Assembly: GCA_029259055.1 (NCBI GenBank)
Contig: JAPDJP010000009.1
Coordinates: 1 to 47,476, forward strand
Length of the DNA: 47,476 nucleotides
From: Thermoplasmatota archaeon
Lineage (GTDB): Archaea; Thermoplasmatota; E2; UBA202; JdFR-43
Direction of reading: 5' to 3'
Below, piece by piece: positions 11,738 through 47,476 of the stretch. How positions within the stretch are numbered: position 1 is the stretch's first letter; each line of letters begins with the position of its first letter. The notes under the pieces were generated by a model. It had not been told where the DNA came from. It ran no database searches and saw only the letters and a list, made by a program, of their open reading frames with translations. Both the position numbers and the translations under genes were made by a program.

Positions 11738-12163
11738 ATGGAGAAAAAAATAGTGCTCGTAATTGATGATGAAGACACAATGCAGGATTTGATTAGAAGA
11801 AATTTAGAAAGATGCAAAATACCTATTATTGTCTATAGTGCTTTAACAGGAGAGGAAGGAGTAAAAAAATACAAGGAATTAATGGAAAAAGGAAGGAAAC
11901 CTGATTTGGTGATTATGGATTTAAATTTAACTCAGTGGGGGAAGGGAAAAATAGATGGAGTGGAAGCTACAAGAAGAATTTTAAAGATAGACCCAAATGC
12001 AAATATTTATGGATATACCGCTTGGTTCGCAACAGAATGGGCTTATAAATTAAAGGAAGTTGGAGCGAAAGATGTTATTGAAAGAACGATTCTACCTAGT
12101 GAATTCAGAAAAATGATTGAATCAATATTAATTTCTATGGATAAGCATAAAAAATCCGAATAA
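11738..12163 (+). CDS. Stand-alone response-regulator receiver domain, degenerate at the conserved Lys
   Basis: VLVIDDEDTMQDLIRRNLE, DLVIMDLNLTQ, YGYTAW; beta5 region GAKDVIERTI where K-P is usual. Confidence 0.88.
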   Translation: MEKKIVLVIDDEDTMQDLIRRNLERCKIPIIVYSALTGEEGVKKYKELMEKGRKPDLVIMDLNLTQWGKGKIDGVEATRRILKIDPNANIYGYTAWFATEWAYKLKEVGAKDVIERTILPSEFRKMIESILISMDKHKKSE

Positions 12164-12164
12164 T

Positions 12165-12881
12165 TTAAGCAACCCTTCCCATTCTGAAAGCTCCGGTCAA
12201 CCTAATTTCATCTTCTTCCAAAACATAATCAATCCAATGACGAGATATAACCTCCCCACATCCTTGCACTCTTAATTGCAAACGGGCACCTTCTTCCCTC
12301 AATTCAATAACTCCATCCATTAAATGCTTTATAGTTTGTACTTCAATTTCTTCATGCATTCCCCTTGTCATACTAAACATGGAAGTAGCACCCATTCTTT
12401 TACACATTCCACTCAACACTTGCAGGAATCTGAAAACTGCTTTAGCATCTGAATAAACAATTAGAGTTGATAAAGAATCAAAAATTAATCTATAATTTCC
12501 TGCGCTTTCTCTTTGAATTTGTATAATTGATGATGCTATCCTCTCCCTATTTATTGGACTATCAACAAATATTGCCCATTTACTCTCTTCTTTTAATTCA
12601 ACACTTGGGGAATATACATCAATATATCTTATCATGCCCTTGTTTTCATACTCCTCGTATTTATCATCGAGTTTCTTCATCTCTTCTCTTAAATCCGCGA
12701 ATGATTTATCTGTCAAAACGAATATAATTTTTTCTCCTTCTTGTAATCCTGATAAAGCAAATCTTTTCAAAATAATTTCTTTTCCTATAAAAGGAGGAGC
12801 ATATACTAACACATTGCTTTTTATTGGTATACCTCCCTTAAGAAGTTCATCTAATCTATCAATACCTGTTTTAGCTAACAT
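12165..12881 (-). CDS. KaiC/RAD55/ArlH-like RecA-superfamily ATPase
   Basis: TGIDRLDELLKGGIPIKSNVLVYAPPFIGKEIILKRFA; Walker B-like RLIFDSLSTLIVY; P-loop lacks S/T after GK. Confidence 0.87.
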   Translation of the reverse strand: MLAKTGIDRLDELLKGGIPIKSNVLVYAPPFIGKEIILKRFALSGLQEGEKIIFVLTDKSFADLREEMKKLDDKYEEYENKGMIRYIDVYSPSVELKEESKWAIFVDSPINRERIASSIIQIQRESAGNYRLIFDSLSTLIVYSDAKAVFRFLQVLSGMCKRMGATSMFSMTRGMHEEIEVQTIKHLMDGVIELREEGARLQLRVQGCGEVISRHWIDYVLEEDEIRLTGAFRMGRVA

Positions 12882-14034
12882 TTCCCCCCTCTATAATTTT
12901 CTCGACAAGGGCTTCAAAAACTTCATAAATTCCAATTTTATCCTTCGCAACAGCCTCCACAACGATAGCATCTTTATCTAAATTCATCATATCCTTTATC
13001 TTATCGCCTTTCAATGCATTTGGTAAATCCTGCTTATTTGCAACAACCACATATGGTATATCCCCAAAAATATCCAACAATTTTTTCGCAAATTGCAATT
13101 CATTTGGCTTTGTTGAATCAACAATCAGTATAACTCCCTTTGAAGATTCAGCAAACTTTTTAATTAAAGGCAAAAATCTTTCGTGACTCGGTATTCCAAA
13201 AATTTCTGCTCTATATCCTTTATAATCAACTATTCCATATTCAACACCAACAGTTGTTCCAAGCCTTTCAACTGGTGTAAATTCTTTTGCCAAATTTTTT
13301 ATAAAAGTGGTTTTTCCTGACTGCACTGGCCCAATTACACAAATTTTTGGTATATATATTCTTATGCCATCTGGCTTAAAAATCTTGAATTCTAATCTTT
13401 TTCCTTCATTTCCTCCCCAATCATTTTTTTTGATATGCATATACTGCCTAACTGTTTTTTCTTCAACTATTCCTATTTCAATAATTGCATTAAAGATTCT
13501 TTTTATTTTGTACATTACAGATTCTTTGTATGGCCATGCAATGAAATTGTAGATAGCAACAAAACCAGCTTTTTCAATTTCTTTGTTTATTCTTTCTATT
13601 CCTTCCAAAGCTTTTCTTTCTCCGCACATATCCATAATGTTTGATAAGGAATCAAATACAATAACGCCTTTTCCCTCTATTTCCTCAAAAATGCTTAGCA
13701 AAGCATCTTCATAGCTTTCTATATCATGAGGCTCTTCTATACTATAATTCCCCTCTGATGGTGCGCCAATTAAAGAAGAATATCCATCAACAATTATTAG
13801 TTTGTCATACTTATCTATATCCCATTTAAAATCATTAAAAGCTTTTTTAAGGTTTTTTGGAGAACTTTCAGAAGATACATATATACCGTATAAACCTCTT
13901 TCCAAATTATGATGCAAAATATGAATACCAATATTACTTTCTTCAACACCTGGCTCTATATAAAATAGCATCGATTTTCCTTCTGGAATGCCTTTTAAAT
14001 ATTCATCAAGTTTTGGTATACCTGTTTCAATCAT
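12871..14034 (-). CDS. KaiC-like domain (no Walker A) fused to Ras/Arf-like small GTPase
   Basis: N-term TGIPKLDEYLKGIPEGKSMLFYIEPGVEESNIG...GVIVFDSLSNIMDM; C-term G1 GPVQSGKTTFIKNL, switch TTVGVEYG, G3-like FGIPSHERF, G4 NKQD. Confidence 0.88.
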   Translation of the reverse strand: MIETGIPKLDEYLKGIPEGKSMLFYIEPGVEESNIGIHILHHNLERGLYGIYVSSESSPKNLKKAFNDFKWDIDKYDKLIIVDGYSSLIGAPSEGNYSIEEPHDIESYEDALLSIFEEIEGKGVIVFDSLSNIMDMCGERKALEGIERINKEIEKAGFVAIYNFIAWPYKESVMYKIKRIFNAIIEIGIVEEKTVRQYMHIKKNDWGGNEGKRLEFKIFKPDGIRIYIPKICVIGPVQSGKTTFIKNLAKEFTPVERLGTTVGVEYGIVDYKGYRAEIFGIPSHERFLPLIKKFAESSKGVILIVDSTKPNELQFAKKLLDIFGDIPYVVVANKQDLPNALKGDKIKDMMNLDKDAIVVEAVAKDKIGIYEVFEALVEKIIEGGNVS

Positions 14035-14035
14035 A

Positions 14036-14377
14036 TTATCTTAAAATTTTTTTGATTTCTTTTGCAGCTTTTTCAACTATTGGATATACATCCTCACTTT
14101 TGGCAATTACAGCAAGCAGAGCATTTGAGCCAGCGCCAACAACAATTATCTTTCTATTTTTCCCGTCTATAACTACTTTTTTTGGTAAGCCTTCTTTCAA
14201 TTCATCCATTGCAACTTCAGCAGAACCCAATAATGCGGCGGACATAGCAGCAAAAACTTGTGCTTTTATTCCTTCCATATCAGAAAAAATAAGTAAACCA
14301 TCTCTTCCAGCTATACAAGCTGAATCTATACCATTTGCTTTCAAATCGCTAAGAATTTTCATATAGGCTTCTTTCAT
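14036..14377 (-). CDS. Roadblock/LC7 domain protein (MglB-like GTPase regulator)
   Basis: ILSDLKANGIDSACIAGRDGLLIFSDMEGIKAQVFAAMSAALLGSAEVAMDEL...VGAGSNALLAVIAKSE. Confidence 0.93.
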   Translation of the reverse strand: MKEAYMKILSDLKANGIDSACIAGRDGLLIFSDMEGIKAQVFAAMSAALLGSAEVAMDELKEGLPKKVVIDGKNRKIIVVGAGSNALLAVIAKSEDVYPIVEKAAKEIKKILR

Positions 14378-14444: not shown

Positions 14445-16169
14445 TTACAATAGCAACTTAAAAACAATATATGTAATTAAAATCATAATTGTACCATGCC
14501 TTAATCCAGCCAATGCCCTCCCCTCCGCCAAAGCACCTGCAACAAGTCCATTGCCTATTGCTTGGGATAAGGCGGTGCATATGTATATAAATTTATATTC
14601 ATCTAGCGAAACCGTTGCTCCTCCTCCCACCAAGCCTCCAGCTACCTGGGAAGCCTCCAATAATTTTGGAAGAAACATTCCCGCTAATGCAACAATTACA
14701 GCTAAAAACACAAAAAAGGATATGTATATAATCATAAGATACATTTTCATCTCTGTTCTTCTTTCTGCTTGTAAAATCTTTATTTCTCGGACATTCTTTG
14801 CGGCTGCTTCAATAACATCTGCCACTTTTCCTCCTGCCTCTGAAGCTTTAACAACCATAGTTGTTGTTCTTTTTATCAATGGGGTTTTTAATCTCTCTCC
14901 CAATCTTTTCAATGCCTCACTAAAGGGTAAGCCCCATGAAATTTGCACTGCCATTTTTTTGATTTCTGGTGTTAAATAACCATAATCTCCTTTAGCTGCC
15001 ATTTCAACAGCTTTTGCCATCGTCATTCCAGCTTTTCTTGATTCTGCCAAATCTCTTAAAAAATCTGGAAATCTCTCTTCTATCAAATCCATTTTCTTAT
15101 ATCTCCTATATTCATAAAATCCAAAAGGCCCTATTAAAGCAAGGATTGCAAAAATCGCAAAATCTATGGCATTCTTTTTTGATAGTGATATAGTGCCTAT
15201 TGCTGTCAATTTGCCAAGTTGCAATAATATAGCTATCGTAATAAAAATTCCAGCAATAAAAGCTGATGTTAAAAGAATAACAATCGTATATAATTTCTCC
15301 ACATCATACTTTTCTTTTATTTCTCCAGCCTTCTCTGGAAGTATGAAGATAATGTATAAAATTATAGAAACCAAGATTCCTATACTTAAAAAAATGAGGG
15401 CATAGCCCCATTCAAATTTACTAAGTTCAATTTTGCTAGGGAGTTTTATTATGCTAAGTATATTTATTAAAATATAAAGGGAAATTAAAGAAATGATAAT
15501 AAAATACAGAATATTTTTTCTTAAAACAATTTCTTCTCTTATCGTTCTACCTTTCTCTCTTATTCCAATGATTGATTCAACGGGGCTTGGCATTTCTCCG
15601 CCTGCAATCAGAGAAGCCATCCATGATACTATTGCCATGTTTATTAGGAATAGAGGGTCAGCCATTCTGAAAATGAGGGGGGAAATATTTTCTGGCAAAT
15701 GATAGCCAATATCGAGTTGTGACGCTATTACTATTAAAGAAAATATGAAGGCAAATAGGAAAAAAATAGGATACATGGCTGTTCTCTCAACATTTGGAAT
15801 AGAGAAAATGGTGTATAGCATTAAAAGCAAAACAATACCTAACAGCAAATTTATAAAAACTCTTGGAATGGGCATTTCAAAAAATACAATGAATATATTT
15901 AGGAGGGTTGTAAAAATTAATAGGATGAACGCCATAAGGGAAGAAAAGTAATATCTCCATTCCCTCCTTTTATATTCATCTGTTAAAAATGGTAACATAT
16001 CCTCTTTTATTCTCCTCTGTATCCAGGAAAAAAGGAGGAAGATCACTATTGATAAAGAAAAAATAATGTTTGAGAGAGCAAAAGATTCTCTTATCCTAAA
16101 AATTATGGAAAGAGCAAGTAAAACGATCAAAACAATGAAAGCAAATATAGTTAATCTTTTACCTATCAT
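14445..16169 (-). CDS. Type II/IV filament assembly membrane protein (TadC/ArlJ/GspF family), large
   Basis: FPDFLRDLAESRKAGMTMAKAVEMAAKGDYGYLTPEIKKMAVQISWGLPFSEALKRLGERLKTPLIKRTTTMVVKASEAGGKVADVIEAAA; multiple TM. Confidence 0.92.
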   Translation of the reverse strand: MIGKRLTIFAFIVLIVLLALSIIFRIRESFALSNIIFSLSIVIFLLFSWIQRRIKEDMLPFLTDEYKRREWRYYFSSLMAFILLIFTTLLNIFIVFFEMPIPRVFINLLLGIVLLLMLYTIFSIPNVERTAMYPIFFLFAFIFSLIVIASQLDIGYHLPENISPLIFRMADPLFLINMAIVSWMASLIAGGEMPSPVESIIGIREKGRTIREEIVLRKNILYFIIISLISLYILINILSIIKLPSKIELSKFEWGYALIFLSIGILVSIILYIIFILPEKAGEIKEKYDVEKLYTIVILLTSAFIAGIFITIAILLQLGKLTAIGTISLSKKNAIDFAIFAILALIGPFGFYEYRRYKKMDLIEERFPDFLRDLAESRKAGMTMAKAVEMAAKGDYGYLTPEIKKMAVQISWGLPFSEALKRLGERLKTPLIKRTTTMVVKASEAGGKVADVIEAAAKNVREIKILQAERRTEMKMYLMIIYISFFVFLAVIVALAGMFLPKLLEASQVAGGLVGGGATVSLDEYKFIYICTALSQAIGNGLVAGALAEGRALAGLRHGTIMILITYIVFKLLL

Positions 16170-16171
16170 AT

Positions 16172-17044
16172 TTACACCTCCGGAGCCATGCTTCTTATTG
16201 CCATTGCGAATCCTAAATTAGCAATGGGGAGCATAACAAATGCTATTAAATATAATATGATAGCTGTATTTGCGGGTCCTCCAAATAGAGCCATAACAGA
16301 AAATATTATTATTAAGAAAAGGGGTGCTGCAACAACAACAGTAACATAACTTTCTGCTAACAATCCTAAAGTTTCTAAAAATTCTTTTTGTTGTCTTCTG
16401 TTCTCTCTCATATATTCCTCTGCTTTTGCTAAGAAATAATTTTTTAGATCTCCTCCTGAAGTAATCGTAGTTATTGCTCCTTGTAAAAATTCTTGAAATT
16501 TAATGGATGGTGTTCTATTGGCAGCATTTCTTAATGCGGTTATAATATCAATATTAAAAATAGCAATATCTCTGTAAATCCACGCTGCTTCCTTATGCAC
16601 CTCCCCATAAATTGGCTGTTCCGCCAGGTTTTTAAAAATTTCTGCAGGCGTAATGCCAGCAGTTGCCATAGCGGCAATGAAATTCAATGCATATGGCAAT
16701 TTTACATCAATATCCTTTCTTCTTCTGCTGGCTCTGCTTTCTGGAATCATCATCGTTATAAAATATGCCAACGATGCCAGCAGAAGAGGAGAGGGTATTA
16801 TGATAGCCAACAGTTTCGGAGGAGGTTGAAAAAATATTGGAACTACATAGAAATAAATAATGATTAGTATAATGCCAGCTACTGCTCCCATAATTCCATT
16901 CATCCATGCAAATGAGATATATGCTTCTGGTCTTATTTCCATAAATGCTTTTTCTAACGCTCTCTTTACATATTCTGTCTGTGAGGATTTTGCCGCTTTT
17001 TTGCCAAATATTCTATAGCATAGACTTTGATACTTTGTCAACAT
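16172..17044 (-). CDS. Type II/IV filament assembly membrane protein (TadB/GspF family), small
   Basis: KLPYALNFIAAMATAGITPAEIFKNLAEQPIYGEVHKEAAWIYRDIAIFNIDIITALRNAANRTPS; TM segments. Confidence 0.9.
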   Translation of the reverse strand: MLTKYQSLCYRIFGKKAAKSSQTEYVKRALEKAFMEIRPEAYISFAWMNGIMGAVAGIILIIIYFYVVPIFFQPPPKLLAIIIPSPLLLASLAYFITMMIPESRASRRRKDIDVKLPYALNFIAAMATAGITPAEIFKNLAEQPIYGEVHKEAAWIYRDIAIFNIDIITALRNAANRTPSIKFQEFLQGAITTITSGGDLKNYFLAKAEEYMRENRRQQKEFLETLGLLAESYVTVVVAAPLFLIIIFSVMALFGGPANTAIILYLIAFVMLPIANLGFAMAIRSMAPEV

Positions 17045-18794
17045 CTTCTTCCCTTTCTTTCTTTTCCCTATCTTCTTTTATTCTTTCCATAACTTTATTA
17101 GGATCTTTATAATAGGCAGCTATAACATTTCCAACGTCAACATAATGCTTTATACCCTTCTCAACCATCCACTTTATTACCTCCACTCTTCTATTGAATT
17201 CCTCGTTTAATTGTCTGTCCGTCCAATTCCTTTGCTCAGCGATTCTATCCATTACATATCCCTTACCATAATAATCAAAACTATCTTTTCTTGGGTTCCA
17301 TCTAAAAACTTCGTTTGTGAGCAGATCATCTGTTGTAGGGTCGATACCAACAACCTCAACAACTTCTTTAATTCTCCTAACTCTTCTTTTTCCTATTCTC
17401 ATTAATCCTTGTATTGCGACAATATCCAAAGCTTGGAGTTGAATACGAGGTATGTTAATTGGTTCTCCTTCTAATCTATGGACGACGGAAAAAATAGAAT
17501 CAGCATGCATAGTGGAATATACAGTATGTCCTGTTGCCATTGCCTGGAATAAAACAACTGCTTCCTCTCCTCTTATCTCTCCTACCAGAATATATTCAGG
17601 TCTCTGTCTAAGTGCTGCTTTTAATAAATCAAACATTCCTATCTTGCTTTCTTCGCTTTCTCCTGTTGTTTCTCTTGTAACAGATGCAATCCAGTTTGGG
17701 TGTGGCAAATTTATTTCTCTTGTATCCTCAATAGAAACAATTTTCATTTGCGGGGGAATAAAAAGGCTCAAGGCGTTTAATGTGGTTGTTTTTCCAGATG
17801 CTGTTCCTCCCGCAATAATGGCGGAGGCACCATGCTCTATAGCCATCCAAAAATACGCTGCCATCTCTGCTGACATTGTATTAAATTCTACTAAATGGGT
17901 GGGGGTAAATGGTTCTTCTCTAAATCTTCTTATTGTAAAATTTGAGCCCATTGAAGAAACCTCTCTTGCCAAACATGCTTGTAGTCTCGAACCATCTGGC
18001 ATGGTTGCATCTAGTAGGGGGCGAGCTATTGAAATATGTCTTCCACATTTCTGAGCAAGTTGAATTACAAATGAATCTAATTCACTTTCTGTATGAAAAA
18101 CAATATTTGTTTTTATCGATTCATAATTTCTGTGATAAAGGAAAACAGGCACACCAGCAGCATCACAAGATATATCCTCTATCATCGGGTCTCTCATTAA
18201 AACATCTATTTTTCCGTAACCTAAAAAATCCCTAATAACATAGTACATTATTTTTTCTCTTGTAATATCATCAATATTTAACGAATAATCTTTTATTATT
18301 CTATCTACATTTTTTTTCAAATATTCTTTTGCTTCATCATACGAAAATTCTGTTAATTCTATATCCATTGTTTTAATAAGAGTTTCCTTAATGAAATCCA
18401 GTGTTTTTCTTTCTTCAACACTTAAAGTAGGCTCTAAAACTTCATATATGTATTCATGATTTTTATTGTCATAAACGATTCTAACATAAGCATAGGGTTT
18501 TACAATAGGATGAACCTCCACAACTTCTATATGTTCCTCCTTTGGGGGAGATAGATCTACAATTTGTTTATATTCTCCAAAAATTTTTTCTACATCTTCT
18601 CCTCTCCTTATTTTAATCATAAATTCCTTGGCTCTAAACTTTTCTTCCATTTCCTGTATGTTTTTTAATTCTTCCAAAATTTTTTTTCTAGTTACCATTA
18701 ATTCATCTATTTTGTGCTTACTTAGAAGAAATCCGGCTCTCTTTTTTTCTTCCTTTTCCTCCTTTTTTAATAATTCTTTAAATACTTTTTCCAT
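17013..18794 (-). CDS. Type II/IV secretion system ATPase (GspE/TadA/ArlI family)
   Basis: IIAGGTASGKTTTLNALSLFIPPQMKIVSIEDTREINLPHPNW, RQRPEYILVGEIRGEEAVVLFQAMATGHTVYSTMHAD. Confidence 0.97.
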   Translation of the reverse strand: MEKVFKELLKKEEKEEKKRAGFLLSKHKIDELMVTRKKILEELKNIQEMEEKFRAKEFMIKIRRGEDVEKIFGEYKQIVDLSPPKEEHIEVVEVHPIVKPYAYVRIVYDNKNHEYIYEVLEPTLSVEERKTLDFIKETLIKTMDIELTEFSYDEAKEYLKKNVDRIIKDYSLNIDDITREKIMYYVIRDFLGYGKIDVLMRDPMIEDISCDAAGVPVFLYHRNYESIKTNIVFHTESELDSFVIQLAQKCGRHISIARPLLDATMPDGSRLQACLAREVSSMGSNFTIRRFREEPFTPTHLVEFNTMSAEMAAYFWMAIEHGASAIIAGGTASGKTTTLNALSLFIPPQMKIVSIEDTREINLPHPNWIASVTRETTGESEESKIGMFDLLKAALRQRPEYILVGEIRGEEAVVLFQAMATGHTVYSTMHADSIFSVVHRLEGEPINIPRIQLQALDIVAIQGLMRIGKRRVRRIKEVVEVVGIDPTTDDLLTNEVFRWNPRKDSFDYYGKGYVMDRIAEQRNWTDRQLNEEFNRRVEVIKWMVEKGIKHYVDVGNVIAAYYKDPNKVMERIKEDREKKEREEDVDKVSKSML

Positions 18795-18940: not shown

Positions 18941-19915
18941 ATGGTGTACGTATCTGCAGGAGATTTAGAAAAATATGCATACTGCCCCCTTTCTTGGTGG
19001 CTTAGCAAAAAATATAAAGTTGTTTCTAAAGAAGGGATTGAAAAGCATAGAGAAACGGAAGAAAAACTCAAAGAAATAAAAATAAAAGAAAAGAAAGCAA
19101 AATTTTACGAAAAATATATTTTGTTTTCTTCTATATTTGCTTCTATAGTCGCTATCTCTGGTTTGGCTTTTCTACACGGAAAAATGGAAAAATTCTGGAA
19201 TTACTTTTTTATAGTAATAGCCCTTATTTGGCTACTCAACTCTTCCTTTTTTCTTTATAGGGCAACAAAGGCAGTTGAAATTCTTCAAGCAAAATATGAA
19301 AAAATGTTTTTAGTTTCTTCAATGGGCGCCACCATAATTGCCTTTTTTGTTGTAATATTATCTGTTCCCGCAAATCCCGCATTTAGCAAATTTTTAGAAA
19401 TTTTAGCTTTAATTTGGATAATAATTGCTAACATTATTTTTTACAGGCTAATTTATTTATCCGAAGATATCTTAAGTAAGAAGATAAAATATATTCCGGT
19501 AAAGAGTAAGATAGAATATATTGGAGCAGATAAAGAGGGAAAAGAAATTATTTCTGAGAAATATGGAATAAGAGGAAAACCAGATTATATATTATGTATA
19601 GATGATGATTTCATTCCTGTTGAAGAAAAAACCGCGGATTTAGTCTCTCCTCCATTGTCCCACGTTATACAAATAACAGCATATTGTATGCTTGTAGAAG
19701 ATAAATATGGAAAATCCCCCCCATATGGAATCATTAAATATAAAAATAGCCAATTTAAAATACCTTATGAGATGAGATGGAAAAAAATGGTAATTGAAAT
19801 GAGAAAAAAACTGCTTAAGGATTTGGAAAAAGGGGAAACCCACAGGAATCACTTTAACAAAAGAAAATGTTTAAACTGTGCGAGAAGAGAGTTTTGTAAT
19901 GAGAAGTTAGTATAG
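18941..19915 (+). CDS. Cas4-like PD-(D/E)XK nuclease with internal transmembrane insertion
   Basis: N-term YAYCPLSWW; GIRGKPDYILCIDDDFIPVEEKTA; HVIQITAYCMLVE; C-term KCLNCARREFC; four hydrophobic segments between residues ~60 and 180. Confidence 0.85.
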   Translation: MVYVSAGDLEKYAYCPLSWWLSKKYKVVSKEGIEKHRETEEKLKEIKIKEKKAKFYEKYILFSSIFASIVAISGLAFLHGKMEKFWNYFFIVIALIWLLNSSFFLYRATKAVEILQAKYEKMFLVSSMGATIIAFFVVILSVPANPAFSKFLEILALIWIIIANIIFYRLIYLSEDILSKKIKYIPVKSKIEYIGADKEGKEIISEKYGIRGKPDYILCIDDDFIPVEEKTADLVSPPLSHVIQITAYCMLVEDKYGKSPPYGIIKYKNSQFKIPYEMRWKKMVIEMRKKLLKDLEKGETHRNHFNKRKCLNCARREFCNEKLV

Positions 19916-20911: not shown

Positions 20912-22649
20912 TTATAACTTTCGAAAGGGAGATTGCCAAAAAAACAATTCCATTTTTACTTCTTCCACCCATTCATATGGTTGCATCAATGGATGCCAAT
21001 CAAAGTTGAGCCATGGTATTCCCATACACCTTCCATATATTGGCTTTGGAAGAAAGGTATGCCAGTCACTCCAATAATTTTTAAACCAGACATTGAGAGA
21101 GAAAAGTTTTACATCAAAATATGCATTTATGCCATTTTCAATAAAATTATTTTCTTTTATCACGTTCCGTTTGCAATCTGTCCCTAAAAACGAGCTGAGA
21201 TATATGCCACATCGAGTATTATAAGATATATTGTTGTTACATTATGATATTCCCAACACCTTCAATTTCTATCCCAACCCAATTGTTATGTAGTACCTCA
21301 TTTTTTGAAATTATATTGCTACGTGTCCAACTCTTTACAGTAGATATTCCACACCAGTATTTGCTCCAACAAACTACATTATGTATAATTTTATTGAAAG
21401 AGCCTCCTTGAATGCTTATACCATACCATTCATTTTTAACGACATTATTCCCATACACAGTATTATGATCTGAATAAGAAAATACCAAAATTCCCATACC
21501 GTTTTCAGTAATTTCATTAATCGAAATGTTATTGTAGCAGGAGTCCCAGAGAAAGATGGCTTCACCACGTGTATTGATTACACGATTTCCTATGATGGTA
21601 TTATTATCACATGTATTCAATGAAATTCCATTTTCATTTGAGTTTGATATGCTATTATTGGAAATTACATTATGTGATGAATAAAAGAGTAAGATGCCTT
21701 CATATGTATTAGAAATGGTGCAATCAGTAATGATATTGTTATTACAATAAGCAGCTTCTATCCCAACGCTGCTATTATTGATTGTAATGTTTTTTATTTT
21801 AGAAGCATTACAATTCACTATTATTAATTCTCCCACTTCAACATCCTCCAAAAGAACATCCTCTTTATTTTTGATATATAACAGTGGCAATCCATTTACA
21901 GTATTGTTATTGATATTATGAATAAATTGAGGAAGTTTTTCACCATATATGTCGATTCCATTACCAACAAAAACATTATTTAAAATTGTGTTGTTTAAGG
22001 AATATTCTATCAAGATACCATCCCATTTATTTTCATAAAATATGCACCGAGAAACTTTATTATGGTTGGAATGTGTAATCCACATCCCTTCCTCGTTATT
22101 AGAAACATTACAGTTTAAAATTTCATTGTTTTCCGAGTAGAGAAGTTTAATGCCCAAATTGTTTTTGTATATATTGCAATTCAAAATTTTGTTCTCATTT
22201 GAGAAATATATTTCAATGGCTACCCAACTATTATAAAAATTGCAATTGGAAATTGTGTTCCCTTCAGACTTATATATTATCGCACTTGCATATTCCCAAC
22301 TACCATTGGTCATGGTAAAATTGATGATATTTACATGGCTTTCAGTTATATTCACAGCGTATCCTTGAATAGCATGTATTATTGTTTTTTCCCTGCACTC
22401 TCCAATCAAATTTATGCTTTTGTATAAATTCACGCTTTCATTATAGACCCCACTATAAACAAATACAGTATCTCCATTGCTTGCATTATCTATAGCATCT
22501 TGTATCTTGCTATAATTTCCTGGGCCTGAGCCGCCAACATATAAAACATTGCCATTATCATTTTTCATGATGGCATAATTTCCTATTTCATCGGCAATTG
22601 CAGGAGTGATTAGTAAAATAATAATCAAAATTGTTGCAATTCTTTTCAT
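20912..22649 (-). pseudogene. NosD-like parallel beta-helix secreted protein, interrupted by a +1 frameshift at ~21237
   Basis: ORF 21237-22649 ends ...GVGNIIM*; skipping one base gives NNNISYNTRCGIYLSSFLGTDCKRNVIKENNFIENGINAYFDVKLFSLNVWFKNYWSDWHTFLPKPIYG...IPWLNFDWHPLMQPYEW, the expected C-terminus. Confidence 0.82.
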
Positions 22650-23608
22650 CTTTCACCCCCATATGAGGATAAACGGGGCATCCAGTCAAAGTTGAGCCAT
22701 GGTATACTAGGAATTATATGATAACCAAGCACTATTGTTGTTACACCAAAAATTGGTTTCGGAGTTAGGGAATACCAATTGTCCCAATAATTACGAAGCC
22801 ATATATTGAAAAATGAGAGAAGAGGCTTAATGCCTGCTCTTAGAAAAATCCAATTCACAAAGAATGCATTCCTTTCGTTGTTGTCGATTAAGTCATTGTA
22901 AAAAATTATATTCTCTTTTCCACCCCAAATATGTATTCCTATATCATTTTTCATAACGATATTATAAGAGACAATATTTTTCTTAGAATATAGCGAAATG
23001 AATATGCCGATCTCATTTTGCAATATACTGTTCCTCGTTATCTTGTTAAAACTACTTTCTTCTAACTGTATTCCCGTTCCAATAGGCCATTCCAATTCAT
23101 TAAAAATTAGATTATCGGATATAGTATTTTTATTTGATTGATTTAGGAATATGCCCCAGTTGTTAACTAATATAACGTTATTAGATATAATATTTGATTG
23201 TGAATTATCAATAAATATTCCAGCAGCTGCCCATATAACCTCCGAGCTATTTCTTATAGTAAAATTTTTAATAACTACGTTATGGTGAATTATTCGGATA
23301 ACGTCTCCCTTCTTCATTCCATCTATTATTGTTGTTTCCCTATTTTCTCCTATAAGCTTAATAGATTTATCAATAACAATATTTTCATAATAAGGTGAGG
23401 AATCATCATATACAAAGATTGTATCTCCATTTTCCGCATCATTTATTGCATCCTGTATATGAGTATAGTTGTTCGGACCTGTTCCTCCTACATACAATGT
23501 TCTTCCATTGTTCAAAACACCGTTTTCCATGATTCTGTTGCTTCCTTTAATGGGGAATACTGAAAAAGCGAGTATAAAAATAATTCCTGTTGCAACGATT
23601 CTTTTCAT
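22646..23608 (-). CDS. NosD-like parallel beta-helix (PbH1) secreted protein
   Basis: TLYVGGTGPNNYTHIQDAINDAENGDTIFVY...IGENRETTIIDG; repeats NIISNNVILVNNWGIFLNQS; C-term NYWDNW...IPWLNFDWMPRL. Confidence 0.92.
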   Translation of the reverse strand: MKRIVATGIIFILAFSVFPIKGSNRIMENGVLNNGRTLYVGGTGPNNYTHIQDAINDAENGDTIFVYDDSSPYYENIVIDKSIKLIGENRETTIIDGMKKGDVIRIIHHNVVIKNFTIRNSSEVIWAAAGIFIDNSQSNIISNNVILVNNWGIFLNQSNKNTISDNLIFNELEWPIGTGIQLEESSFNKITRNSILQNEIGIFISLYSKKNIVSYNIVMKNDIGIHIWGGKENIIFYNDLIDNNERNAFFVNWIFLRAGIKPLLSFFNIWLRNYWDNWYSLTPKPIFGVTTIVLGYHIIPSIPWLNFDWMPRLSSYGGER

Positions 23609-23645
23609 AACATTCATAAATTGGATGTTAAATATAAGGTTTTTG

Positions 23646-30704: not shown

Positions 30705-30949
30705 ATGAAATATAGAGATGGAACTTATGGAAAATCTCTAGCTGATGAAGAATGGATTGCTGACCCATGTGTTACATAAATTGGAGATAATACAAATGAT
30801 AGGAGGCAGAGCATTAATAGCGGGCATTTGGCGGAAGATAGGCGTTACTATACAAGATTGGTGCAAAGAGTCTAATTACAAAAGGAAAAAGATTAGAAAG
30901 AGGAAAAGTTTATATTGGGATACCTACAAAAGATTTGAATCAGGTATAG
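30705..30949 (+). pseudogene. Decayed hexapeptide-repeat transferase/gamma-carbonic-anhydrase-like gene
   Basis: Fragments in three frames: WIADPCVT*IGDNTN, IGGRALIAG, IGAKSLITKGKRLERGKVYIGIPTKDLNQV*; the last matches the usual VGAxALVTKGKxIPxGSLVxGxPAKxV end. Confidence 0.6.
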
Positions 30950-32556
30950 CCACCTATTTTTAAAGAAGGGTCTCCTAATAGAACCCATTCTTGCACGGTT
31001 TTGCAATTTACTAAATCAACAGTATATGGCTTTACTCCTGTCCAATCTTTGCTCCAATTAATCGGGAATTTGTTTAAATAATCTATTAAAGCTGTCCCCC
31101 ATACCTCTCCTAAAATATCTTTTCCTTTACTATAAACTTCAAAGAAATGTGGTTCAAGCCATCCCCCTAAATACTGTATACAATCCGGTATTCCATCAGG
31201 CACACTATCTGGAATCTCATCTACTGGGCCGTCTCCAATTGTTCCATATCCTAAACCAGTATTACCAATGGTTGCAATGCTTCCTCCATCGGCTTTCCTT
31301 GTAAAAAGCCATCCCCAGCATTCGGGCGCCATCTCTCCCAAGAAATAAGCCCATATACCTTCTTTAAATATTCTTAAAACGCTGACATTAAATTGGCAAT
31401 TATGGCATCCTCCCACTACAACAACTGGTAATTTATTTCCATTGCTCAACTTTTTAATTTCATCTAAACCAAAATCAATCCAAGTATCGAAATCATTGTA
31501 TGGGTGGGTTGCCCAAGATGCTGGATTACCGTGCCCACTAAAATAAACAAATCCTTCCCCTTCCGATAAAACTTTTACAGCATTTTCTGGCGTAAATTCA
31601 ACATCTCCTCCTTTAACATAAATCCTTATATGTTCAAATCCTTCCATAAAACTTAAAGCATAATCACATTCAACCTGTCCTTCTATATAGTCGGTTCCTA
31701 CTTCCTTATCTGGAAATGAATCTCCTCCTATGACAACCATTCTTTTGAACCATTCTTTATTTCCATTTGATTCATATTCTATTATTTTTTCTACCATTTG
31801 CTTAACTTCAAATTTATATCTACATGGTAGCCTGCCTACATAAACATCTGGATACATATCTAAAACATCTTTATTATTTGCATTCCATTCTGCAAAAATT
31901 CCATTTCCATTACTATCCCAATCATCAAATTTTATCTCTCCATTTTCATATTTATAGATGTCAGCATAATATAAATCGGTTATATAACTTGTTTCCCAAC
32001 TTGAATTATCATCTAAATGACTATAGCGAACAGGAACATACCATTTAAATCTTTGTCCCTTCATTCCACCAACAAGCAAAACATATTTGATATTCCATTT
32101 TTCTATAGCATCCTTTATAAAATATTTTATTTTTTCAGCATTATCTCTTCCATTATAATTTGAATATATTTCTTCGGTTGTAACCAATTTTGTTCTTATT
32201 CCATTTTTTTCTTTATGTTGCACCAGCTTTTCTAAATATTTAGAAAATTTTTTCGGGGATATTATTACCAAATCATAAATATCATTGAAGGAAATGGTCT
32301 CATTTTTTCCAAATTTTATTTTTAATTTTTGAGCATCTGTTGTTACAAATATTACTCTGCTTCCATTGTACAAACCAACCCCAATATTATATGTTGCATT
32401 TGGAGGATAGCATTCAATATCTATTATTTTTGTTCCAATAGGGAAAATATATGTATGATGGATACTTTTCCTTATCAAACTTTTGGATATGGATGAATTA
32501 GATATGGATGGAAATATCATGAGCAGAAATATTACAAATACTACTACTTTTTTCAT
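30940..32556 (-). CDS. Gingipain-like C25 family cysteine peptidase, secreted
   Basis: Signal peptide; GFVYFSGHGNPASWATHPY (His), VVVVGGCHNCQFN (Cys); ends EWVLLGDPSLKIGGYT. Confidence 0.93.
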   Translation of the reverse strand: MKKVVVFVIFLLMIFPSISNSSISKSLIRKSIHHTYIFPIGTKIIDIECYPPNATYNIGVGLYNGSRVIFVTTDAQKLKIKFGKNETISFNDIYDLVIISPKKFSKYLEKLVQHKEKNGIRTKLVTTEEIYSNYNGRDNAEKIKYFIKDAIEKWNIKYVLLVGGMKGQRFKWYVPVRYSHLDDNSSWETSYITDLYYADIYKYENGEIKFDDWDSNGNGIFAEWNANNKDVLDMYPDVYVGRLPCRYKFEVKQMVEKIIEYESNGNKEWFKRMVVIGGDSFPDKEVGTDYIEGQVECDYALSFMEGFEHIRIYVKGGDVEFTPENAVKVLSEGEGFVYFSGHGNPASWATHPYNDFDTWIDFGLDEIKKLSNGNKLPVVVVGGCHNCQFNVSVLRIFKEGIWAYFLGEMAPECWGWLFTRKADGGSIATIGNTGLGYGTIGDGPVDEIPDSVPDGIPDCIQYLGGWLEPHFFEVYSKGKDILGEVWGTALIDYLNKFPINWSKDWTGVKPYTVDLVNCKTVQEWVLLGDPSLKIGGYT

Positions 32557-40231: not shown

Positions 40232-42229
40232 ATGAAGCAGAGTTTCATTATATTTCTAGCAGTTGCATTAGTTAGTAGTGGAATAATAATTGGGGGAAAA
40301 ACAGAGGATAACAACCTTAATATTGAAGAGATAGGCAACTACTGTATAATAAAAATAGACAATGCAAGCTATATGTACAGGGAAGGCTATCCCATTATTC
40401 CTTACTATGTAAAAACATATGAATTTCCTGCTGGGACAAAAATTAAAGGAATAAATGTTGAAACAAAAGATGTCAGAAAAATTCATTTAAACAAAAAAAT
40501 TGCACCCTCCCCTCCTATTTTGCCTTTAGGAAAGGAGGCAAATGCAAAGGAAGGAGATATTTATAGAAAAGACACTTTTTATCCTGAAAAATGGTATGAT
40601 TATAATATAGGAATGGGGTTGGTGGGGGGAGAAAGAAAAGTAATCGTATCTATTCATTTATATCCTATAAGATATAATGCTTTTAGAAATGAAGTATTAT
40701 TTACTCATTTTAACATAAATATAGATTATGAATTACCTACCCATCCACTTTTCACAGCAGATGAATATGATTTATTGATCATATGCCCTGATGAGTGGAA
40801 GGATGAAGTGGAAGTTCTAAAACAACATAAGGAAAGTTATGGGATAAGAACTTTAATAAAAACAACTGGAGAAATATACACATATCATAAGGGAAAAGAT
40901 AATGCCGAAAAGATAAAATATGCTATCAAATCAGCAATAGAAGATTATGGAATAAAATATGTCTTACTTGTAGGAGATGCTGATAAAATACCAGCCCGTC
41001 TTTCCTATATTCCTTCTGGAAATTATGAAGTTTCTTTCCCAAGCGATTTATACTATGCAGATATTTATTTCCAAGATGGAAGTTTTTGTAGCTGGGATTC
41101 AAATGATAATGGCTTCTTTGGAGAATTTAAGTATAATGGAAGAACAGATGAAGTTGATTTGTATCCAGATGTTGCAATAGGAAGACTTGCATGTAGCAAC
41201 GATAAAGAAGTATCGAATGTAATAAATAAAATTATTACATATGAAACAACAACATATGGTTCTACATGGTTCAGAAACATTTTGGTTTGTGGAGGAGATA
41301 CATTTATACCAAAAGATGGCGATGATTCTGGAATATATGAAGGAGAATACATGAATCAAAGAATATTGAGTGTAATGAGTGATTTCAATGGAATAAAATT
41401 GTGGGCATCTTTGGGAAATTTAAGTGCATCAAATATTAAGAAAGTCATAAACAATGGTGTGGGTTTCATTGATTTTAGCGGACATGGTAATGTTGTTTCA
41501 TGGGCTACTCATCCGCCTCTATCAGATACTTGGATAGGCTTTACTTTATGGGATACCGCACAACTCTCAAACGGTAATAAATTGCCAGTTGTTGTTATCG
41601 ATGCCTGTTCATGTGGAAGATTTGATGAAAGTACTTGTTTTGCCTGGGGATTTGTTCAAAAATCAAATGGCGGTGGTATAGCAAGTTTGGGAGCATCAGG
41701 CATAGCATATGGAATTCCGGGCTATCCTGCAGCTGGCGTCTTGGGATGGATGGAGCTACAGTTTTTCGTTTATTACAGACAGGATGATATTATCGGAAAT
41801 ATATGGCTTAAATCCTTAAATGGATATATAAATACATTTGGTAAAAAACATCTTGAAGATGTGAAAACAGTTGAAGAATGGGCGCTATTTGGTGACCCAA
41901 CGCTTAAAATAGGAGGGTATTCTTCAGAACATGCAGTTGTTTATATTGATAATCCTGTAGAAGGATATCTGTATTTTGCAAATAAGCCAATCATGCCCAC
42001 TCTCTTCGGAAGAACAATTATATTGGGAAAAATAAATGTAGAAGTAACTGCCTATAATGTTGATAAAGTTGAATTTTATGTGGATGACGAATTAAAGCAT
42101 ATAGATGAAGATGAACCGTTTGAATGGCTCTGGGACGAAACTGTATTTGGAAAACATACCATCAAAGTTAAGGGATATGGAGAGGGAGAAGCAGAAGATG
42201 AGATAAGCTTCTTCATATTTAATATATGA
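40232..42229 (+). CDS. Gingipain-like C25 family peptidase with propeptide and C-terminal Ig-like domain
   Basis: Signal peptide; FIDFSGHGNVVSWATHPP (His), VVVIDACSCGRFD (Cys), EWALFGDPTLKIGGYSS; Ig-like tail VDKVEFYVDDELKHIDEDEPFEWLWDETVFGKHTIKVKGYG. Confidence 0.93.
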   Translation: MKQSFIIFLAVALVSSGIIIGGKTEDNNLNIEEIGNYCIIKIDNASYMYREGYPIIPYYVKTYEFPAGTKIKGINVETKDVRKIHLNKKIAPSPPILPLGKEANAKEGDIYRKDTFYPEKWYDYNIGMGLVGGERKVIVSIHLYPIRYNAFRNEVLFTHFNINIDYELPTHPLFTADEYDLLIICPDEWKDEVEVLKQHKESYGIRTLIKTTGEIYTYHKGKDNAEKIKYAIKSAIEDYGIKYVLLVGDADKIPARLSYIPSGNYEVSFPSDLYYADIYFQDGSFCSWDSNDNGFFGEFKYNGRTDEVDLYPDVAIGRLACSNDKEVSNVINKIITYETTTYGSTWFRNILVCGGDTFIPKDGDDSGIYEGEYMNQRILSVMSDFNGIKLWASLGNLSASNIKKVINNGVGFIDFSGHGNVVSWATHPPLSDTWIGFTLWDTAQLSNGNKLPVVVIDACSCGRFDESTCFAWGFVQKSNGGGIASLGASGIAYGIPGYPAAGVLGWMELQFFVYYRQDDIIGNIWLKSLNGYINTFGKKHLEDVKTVEEWALFGDPTLKIGGYSSEHAVVYIDNPVEGYLYFANKPIMPTLFGRTIILGKINVEVTAYNVDKVEFYVDDELKHIDEDEPFEWLWDETVFGKHTIKVKGYGEGEAEDEISFFIFNI

Positions 42230-46433: not shown

Positions 46434-47476
46434 CTAATAACCACCTATCTTTAGTGATGGATCCCCTAACAAAACCCATTCTTCTACTGTTTTACAATCT
46501 ATTATATCTCTGTCAACATCATGAGTCAGTATATACCTTGAAATTGTATTTGCCCATGCTATACCAAGTATGTCAACACCATCCATTCCATATTCCTTAA
46601 AGAAGTTCACATTCAAAAAACCTGAATAATATTGCACACAATCTGGAATTCCATCTCCATCCTCATCCTTTATTGCAAAATAATCATAACCAGTGTATCC
46701 TATGGTGGCGATGGCTCCGCCATCTATTTTGCGGGTTAGCCACCAGCTCCAGCATTCTGGGCTCCATTCTGATTTATAATATGTTTCATATAGCTTCCTT
46801 ATCTTTAACAGATTGAACACGCTAACATTGAACTGGCTATTATGGCATCCTCCAACAACACATACTGGATACATGTCCTTATTCTTTAATTTTGGTATAT
46901 CTGAAACTATTAGCCCGCCAATCCATGTTTCTTCGTCATGAGGAGGATGAGTTGCCCAGCTCATGGGATTGCCATGACCATCAAAAAATAAAAATCCGCA
47001 TCCTTTACTTACTTCTCTAATCACATCTGATGGGCCTGTCAAAGTTCCTAACGATGTCCATAGTTTTATTCCTTGAAAATCTTGCATATATTGTAAGGCA
47101 AGTTTATTTTCTTCTTCTCCTTCATAATATGGGTCGTCTTTATTTGGCCAACTATCTCCGCCTACAACAACCATTCTTTTGAACCAGTCTTTATTATTGC
47201 TGTTCTCATATGATATTATCTTATCAACCATTATTTTTACTTCCATTTTATTTCTGCATGCGAGTCTTCCTACATAAACATCTGGCATTAAATCGATTTC
47301 ATCCTTGGCAAACGTTTTCCATTCTCCATAAATGCCATTTCCATTGCTGTCCCAGTCTTCAAATTTTATTTCTCCATCTTCATATTTATAGATGTCTGCA
47401 AAATATAAATCGCTGAGAAATCTTTTTTCTCCCCCATCATCTAAATGGGCATATCTTACTGGCATTAGCCATCTTT
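46434..47476 (-). CDS. Gingipain-like C25 family peptidase, N-terminus beyond window end
   Basis: FLFFDGHGNPMSWATHPPH, VCVVGGCHNSQFNVS, EWVLLGDPSLKIGGY*; frame open to window edge (RWLMPVRYAHL). Confidence 0.93.
   Translation of the reverse strand, partial: RWLMPVRYAHLDDGGEKRFLSDLYFADIYKYEDGEIKFEDWDSNGNGIYGEWKTFAKDEIDLMPDVYVGRLACRNKMEVKIMVDKIISYENSNNKDWFKRMVVVGGDSWPNKDDPYYEGEEENKLALQYMQDFQGIKLWTSLGTLTGPSDVIREVSKGCGFLFFDGHGNPMSWATHPPHDEETWIGGLIVSDIPKLKNKDMYPVCVVGGCHNSQFNVSVFNLLKIRKLYETYYKSEWSPECWSWWLTRKIDGGAIATIGYTGYDYFAIKDEDGDGIPDCVQYYSGFLNVNFFKEYGMDGVDILGIAWANTISRYILTHDVDRDIIDCKTVEEWVLLGDPSLKIGGY

Follow-up and report, generated by a model that had tools for sequence, protein, structure and literature searches.

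What could a protein do that joins a KaiC-like domain without an ATP-binding loop to a small GTPase, and which neighbouring genes might it act with? The question is raised by one gene in the window (the whole 47,476-nucleotide stretch of Thermoplasmatota DNA that was analysed), whose product had originally been predicted, from its letters, to be a pseudo-ATPase scaffold carrying a GTPase. The gene and its main motifs are:

12871-14034, minus strand: fusion protein, a pseudo-KaiC domain (residues 2-228) followed by an MglA-type GTPase (residues 229-385), from Pfam, AlphaFold2 and Foldseek
13933-13956, minus strand: former Walker A, EPGVEESN (residues 27-34), with Lys and Ser/Thr gone and a conserved acidic residue, from the PH0186 and homologue alignments
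13309-13332, minus strand: GTPase G1/P-loop, GPVQSGKT (residues 235-242), intact, from the homologue alignment
13174-13200, minus strand: GTPase G3, FGIPSHERF (residues 279-287), where relatives mostly have FGIPGQERF or FGTPGQERF, from the alignment and parsimony
13027-13038, minus strand: GTPase G4, NKQD (residues 333-336), intact, from the alignment and ORF translation

The gene is a single open reading frame on the minus strand, encoding 387 amino acids from an ATG start; we rejected a plus-strand reading of the same interval because it contains stops throughout. Residues 2-228 match the Pfam KaiC family (PF06745, E 8e-22) and residues 230-379 match the Arf/small GTPase family (PF00025, E 4e-14), with other small-GTPase models scoring more weakly, and the C-terminal half also matches TIGR00231 (small_GTP) above its curated cut-off. 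An AlphaFold2 model built on 21 homologues has a pLDDT of 91 and a pTM of 0.86. Using Foldseek against the PDB, its N-terminal half matched the KaiC-like protein PH0284 (target TM 0.84) and also KaiC, i.e., it has a KaiC/RecA fold. The original prediction had called this half KaiC-like and proposed a structural model as a check, and the profile match and the model both bear it out. The domain identities and fold of the fusion are established.

Full-length fusions are present in all 17 genomes of the window's family, in 3/5 genomes elsewhere in the order, and in 34 of the 293 Thermoplasmatota genomes sampled, spanning 13 families. One scan of genome contigs found close relatives only, and the sensitive search covered Thermoplasmatota. 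Three trivial origins were considered and rejected: a decaying pseudogene, because the fusion is intact and kept across 13 families; an assembly artefact, because it is full-length in independently named MAG projects; and a viral or mobile origin, because no relative was found in the viral contigs searched. The fusion is a real, conserved architecture and a variant of two kinds of regulator that are already known. We found no mention of a KaiC-GTPase fusion in the open-access literature searched, though an earlier notice is possible.

When aligned with PH0186, residues E27-P-G-V-E-E-S-N34 of the fusion fall on GGTGTGKT and contain no GK[ST], confirming what had been predicted for the P-loop position (EPGVEESNIG). 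The absence of Walker A was counted over 33 aligned fusions, and the KaiC-family motif GxxxxGK[ST] is found in none of them. Among the 32 aligned homologues, none has a Lys in the former loop, all have Glu or Asp at one loop position, and 31 have Pro at the second. Because the loss is common to all homologues in 13 families, it is ancestral, and the conserved replacement residues indicate that selection, not decay, keeps the altered Walker A. The search for homologues with a canonical Walker A, also proposed as a check, found none among the 32, so the claim of a pseudo-ATPase carrying a GTPase survives, supported by the KaiC fold, the loss of Walker A in every homologue, and the intact G1 and G4 motifs.

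The fusion is part of a roadblock-fusion-KaiC2 cassette, which the original prediction missed and which occurs widely across the phylum, often close to a type IV pilus (T4P) motor. In the window, its other members and an adjacent response regulator are:

14036-14377, minus strand: roadblock/LC7 protein, MglB-like, 113 amino acids, with Arg-Asp-Gly at residues 25-27 (PF03259, 1.1e-13)
12165-12881, minus strand: KaiC2, a second KaiC-family protein of 238 amino acids, with an 11-bp overlap between its gene and the fusion gene's end (PF06745, 4.9e-29)
12777-12800, minus strand: degenerate Walker A of KaiC2, APPFIGKE, with Gly-Lys kept and Ser/Thr replaced by Glu, from comparison of cassette orthologues
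11738-12163, plus strand: receiver-only response regulator, convergent with KaiC2 (PF00072, 1.9e-14)

The predominant order is roadblock-fusion-KaiC2 with the genes abutting or overlapping, and it occurs wherever the contig allows in families f1, f2, f5, f9, f12, f23, and f27 (the last with an extra ORF between roadblock and fusion). Families f21 and f28 have the roadblock gene on the fusion's opposite side and additional KaiC-like genes. In f15, f22, and f33, no roadblock gene was seen in the stretch read around the fusion.

An MglA-type GTPase itself points to a roadblock protein as its likely partner, and the gene adjoining the fusion is the only roadblock match in the window's whole genome; genomes of f1 and f2 likewise have one roadblock gene each, beside the fusion. 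Across the class, a roadblock gene is present in 23/23 genomes with the fusion versus 3/56 without it (Fisher 5e-17, kinship ignored). The adjacent roadblock gene is therefore likely to encode the fusion's partner. Roadblock and fusion genes are neighbours in the majority of cassettes. Most of these partners have RDG, and those of f21 and f28 have RNG.

KaiC2 also has a KaiC fold: its AlphaFold2 model (pLDDT 85) matches PH0284 and FlaH (4yds) in Foldseek, so PF06745 and Foldseek place both KaiC domains of the cassette in the RecA/KaiC fold. In structure and in sequence, both match the archaeal KaiC-like proteins PH0284 and PH0186 best; these have an intact Walker A (seen for PH0186), unlike the cassette proteins. 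Cassette orthologues of KaiC2 lack the Walker A Ser/Thr and in some the Lys is replaced as well (Gly-Arg), so KaiC2 appears from its motifs to be a degenerate ATPase too, a point absent from the original prediction. With Gly-Lys retained in many species, it might still bind ATP. KaiC2 is the best-conserved cassette member within the window's family (78% mean pairwise identity versus 62% and 59% for the N- and C-terminal halves of the fusion, which are similarly conserved, and 53% for the roadblock protein). The KaiC-family proteins in the window's genome are the fusion, KaiC2, and one Rad51 homologue, with none further. We saw canonical GKT only in KaiC-like genes of genome G085, where the fusion was not found. 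These are a tandem pair with intact Walker A motifs (GPPGSGKT and GKTGAGKT; L082, 1821-3248), which may resemble the state that preceded loss of the ATP site. The response regulator is next to KaiC2 in at least six relatives (L033, L034, L036, L039, L041, and L043) and is a possible input to the cassette.

To which class does the GTPase half belong? In MglA Groups 2-5, G3 reads GTPGQ and lacks the Asp, G2 carries a Thr, and the coupled roadblock protein has a conserved Asp-Gly pair (PMC4316618). Nearly all fusions outside f1 and f2 have GTPGQ, most of those in f1 and f2 have GIPGQ, and the G3 Asp occurs nowhere. G2 is GTTV in the window and GTTV, GATV, GTTI, or similar in relatives, never with the Arg of Group 1, and deep fusions read GTTVALDHG...FGTPGQERF. 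Most of the fusions have in common with Groups 2-5 (including CvnD of the Streptomyces conservon and the MglA-like proteins of Deinococcus and Thermus, with MglB-type partners) a GxPGQ G3 that lacks Asp, a Thr in G2, and an adjacent RDG roadblock protein, and related solo genes beside a roadblock gene occur in the phylum as well. Unlike in Groups 2-5, the G domain is fused to KaiC and the window's G3 lacks the Gly and Gln, i.e., GIPSH shows only the missing Asp of the Groups 2-5 G3 traits. On these motifs, the G domain seems to fit the MglA class (Groups 2-5) better than Arf. Arf/Arl GTPases are its best-scoring solved structures by sequence, but their G3 is DxxGQ, against GxPGQ in the fusions, and they are not paired with a roadblock gene. 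Since the fusion lacks the G3 Asp and does have such a gene as partner, we disfavour a eukaryotic-type Arf.

In our tree, bacterial MglA/CvnD proteins join the deep fusions; it is a rough tree of a short alignment with long branches, and it draws Arf/Rab inside f1. The plasmid-borne MglA/CvnD-type genes of Thermus, Deinococcus, and Streptomyces that fall in this group each have a roadblock gene nearby. Standalone MglA-like GTPases with GTPGQ are encoded in the Thermoplasmatota genomes G096 and G104 (L079, 31-849; L080, 9134-9942; L081, 9659-10174); next to two of these three, L079 and L080, lies a roadblock gene that scores above the PF03259 cut-off. The fused G domain may derive from such standalone GTPases. 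The census by Wuichet and Sogaard-Andersen took single-domain proteins of at most 240 amino acids (PMC4316618), so KaiC-GTPase fusions would have been excluded; at 387 amino acids and KaiC-fused, the window's protein exceeds this limit, which belongs to the census and is not a biochemical trait. We prefer the wording "MglA-type G domain" over "an MglA".

What might such a switch control? In the window, the cassette comes after genes for a TadA/FlaI-like ATPase and two TadC-like platform proteins:

17013-18794, minus strand: T4P motor ATPase, TadA/FlaI-like (PF00437, 1.6e-35)
16172-17044, minus strand: T4P/archaellum platform protein, T2SSF, TadC1 (PF00482, 2.5e-17)
14445-16169, minus strand: T4P/archaellum platform protein, T2SSF, TadC2 (PF00482, 7e-23)

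The ATPase matches the FlaI model at 1e-134, which is below the curated cut-off. The same neighbours occur in the same order in G002, G009, and G019, and T4P neighbours lie within ~10 kb in other orders in G023, G031, G117, and G091. G080 has a TadA fragment at the edge of its stretch, ~8 kb from the cassette. A T4P motor is thus found no more than 10 kb from the cassette in 6 of the 13 families (P ~2e-5, or 3e-4 without G080, assuming a 5% chance per family and ignoring shared ancestry). In most genomes of the window's family, including the genus mate G001, the cassette is away from T4P genes. Of the class's 79 genomes, 74 have a T4P ATPase, whether or not they carry the fusion, so the motor itself does not require the cassette. 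The strand opposite holds another neighbour of the ATPase gene, unusual beside T4P genes: 18941-19915 (plus strand) encodes a Cas4/PD-(D/E)XK-like nuclease domain preceded by an N-terminal hydrophobic, apparently transmembrane, region.

Two precedents guide our reading. The KaiC-like protein ArlH assembles as a hexamer on the ATPase ArlI; it binds ATP without hydrolysing it and autophosphorylates (PMC8978795). MglA and SofG control T4P, and in Myxococcus pole choice and T4P are under the control of MglA and its roadblock partner MglB, with a response regulator acting too (PMC4316618, PMC9481161, PMC7668184). The cassette resembles ArlH/FlaH in its KaiC-family fold and in its linkage with genes for an ATPase of FlaI/TadA type and for TadC platform proteins. 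In contrast to the ATP-binding, autophosphorylating ArlH, the fusion has no Walker A and carries a GTPase, and a search of the window's genome (assembly ~92% complete) turned up no archaellin. Both proteins also score below the curated ArlH model's cut-off of 215 (22.1 bits for the fusion, 34.9 bits for KaiC2). We therefore rejected an archaellum regulator.

From the ArlH and MglA/MglB precedents, the pair of KaiC proteins without normal ATP sites, the MglA-type switch, the roadblock protein, and the receiver-only response regulator that adjoins the cassette in several genomes, we infer a GTP-controlled T4P adaptor. Its full form, the reading we prefer although our judgement on it is evenly balanced, is that the T4P motor is gated by a KaiC platform resembling ArlH, into which a GTP switch of MglA/MglB type has been incorporated. 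The MglA-type switch would be mounted on a KaiC-family domain without an ATP site, and the adjacent roadblock protein would regulate it in an MglB-like way, as a GAP and/or GEF. KaiC2 would pair with the pseudo-KaiC half, and together they would make a platform that docks on the T4P motor ATPase, much as the KaiC-like ArlH does on ArlI. Whether or where the motor engages would then depend on the fused switch being in its GTP or GDP state, which would replace ArlH-style ATP binding and autophosphorylation. What we infer in this scheme is that GTP is bound, that the roadblock protein regulates the switch, that the proteins form rings or oligomers and dock on the motor, and that pili are so controlled. 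A bolder version, which we hold tentatively and think somewhat doubtful, is that a KaiC/ArlH-type ring has been switched from ATP to GTP control, such that both KaiC subunits would be dead ATPases and the sole nucleotide input would be the in-built MglA-type GTPase, read by its roadblock partner. Such a motor switch would be widespread in archaea.

Alternatively, the cassette could be a general signalling hub: an MglA/CvnD-like relay on a pseudo-KaiC scaffold, fed by the response regulator, would control transcription or metabolism, and its proximity to T4P genes would be incidental. This would suit the separation of cassette and T4P genes in most family members and the receiver protein that adjoins KaiC2 in several genomes, and in the conservon an MglA-type system operates without any connection to pili (PMC4316618). 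However, linkage to a T4P motor recurs in the six families in differing gene orders, KaiC-like and MglA-like proteins are each known to regulate the archaellum or T4P (PMC8978795, PMC4316618), and archaeal T4P loci with KaiC-like and roadblock genes had already been noted (PMC4858521). We consider this alternative unlikely.

Other alternatives concern nucleotide use by the two halves. Of the GTPase motifs originally predicted, the intact G1 and G4 hold up: the GK[ST] of G1 is conserved in 32/32 aligned homologues, and G4 is NKxD in most, varying in a few deep ones. The altered G3 (GIPSHERF) is correct for the window's protein, where the Gly and Gln of PGQ are both replaced (Ser-His), but not as a family feature, since PGQ is kept by most relatives. 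Gln is replaced by His (window, G007), Tyr (G001), Leu (G002, G009), or Arg (G013, G015, G016); parsimony requires at least four changes of state, given a tree inferred after masking the G3 motif and with several forks unresolved. The G3 oddity is thus a lineage trait, not a feature of the fusion architecture. A slow GTPase is plausible in the window's species, where Ser-His in G3 probably makes hydrolysis slow or entirely partner-dependent. One could go further and take the G domain of this lineage as GTP-locked or non-cycling and the protein as a structural adaptor, as the several Gln losses in the window's own family, with none seen elsewhere among fusions, might suggest. But the G1 Lys and NKxD are constant within that family, the two halves are similarly conserved, and some GTPases without the Gln are thought to obtain one from a partner (PMC4316618), so we find a dead switch quite improbable. 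More improbable by far is that the N-terminal half still binds a nucleotide or other ligand via a non-canonical P-loop and is no pseudo-ATPase. The fold and the Walker B-like VFDSLS or FDSLS are retained in most homologues (the motif is gone from two deep lineages, f5 and f27), but the Lys and Ser/Thr pair is in no homologue, the loop has an acidic residue, and the second Glu of the catalytic pair is altered (SES in the fusion versus LEE in PH0186).

If a GTP switch on a KaiC platform does gate the T4P motor, archaea would possess a polarity or activity switch of MglA/MglB type that is permanently joined to a KaiC-like motor adaptor, offering a testable route to archaeal pilus control and a KaiC-family platform with a swapped nucleotide. 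If the ring has moved from ATP to GTP control, one cassette would join MglA/MglB (bacterial T4P) and ArlH (archaellum), so far known separately. The fusion's distribution, if read correctly, also suggests a widespread archaeal branch that was missed when censuses of prokaryotic small GTPases covered single-domain proteins only.

Elsewhere in the window, 21237-23617 (minus strand) encodes an adjacent pair of NosD/right-handed beta-helix proteins with signal-like N-termini, and three genes with strong Pfam scores encode C25 peptidases (gingipain-type fold) at 30940-32556 (minus strand), 40232-42229 (plus strand), and 46434-47465 (minus strand).
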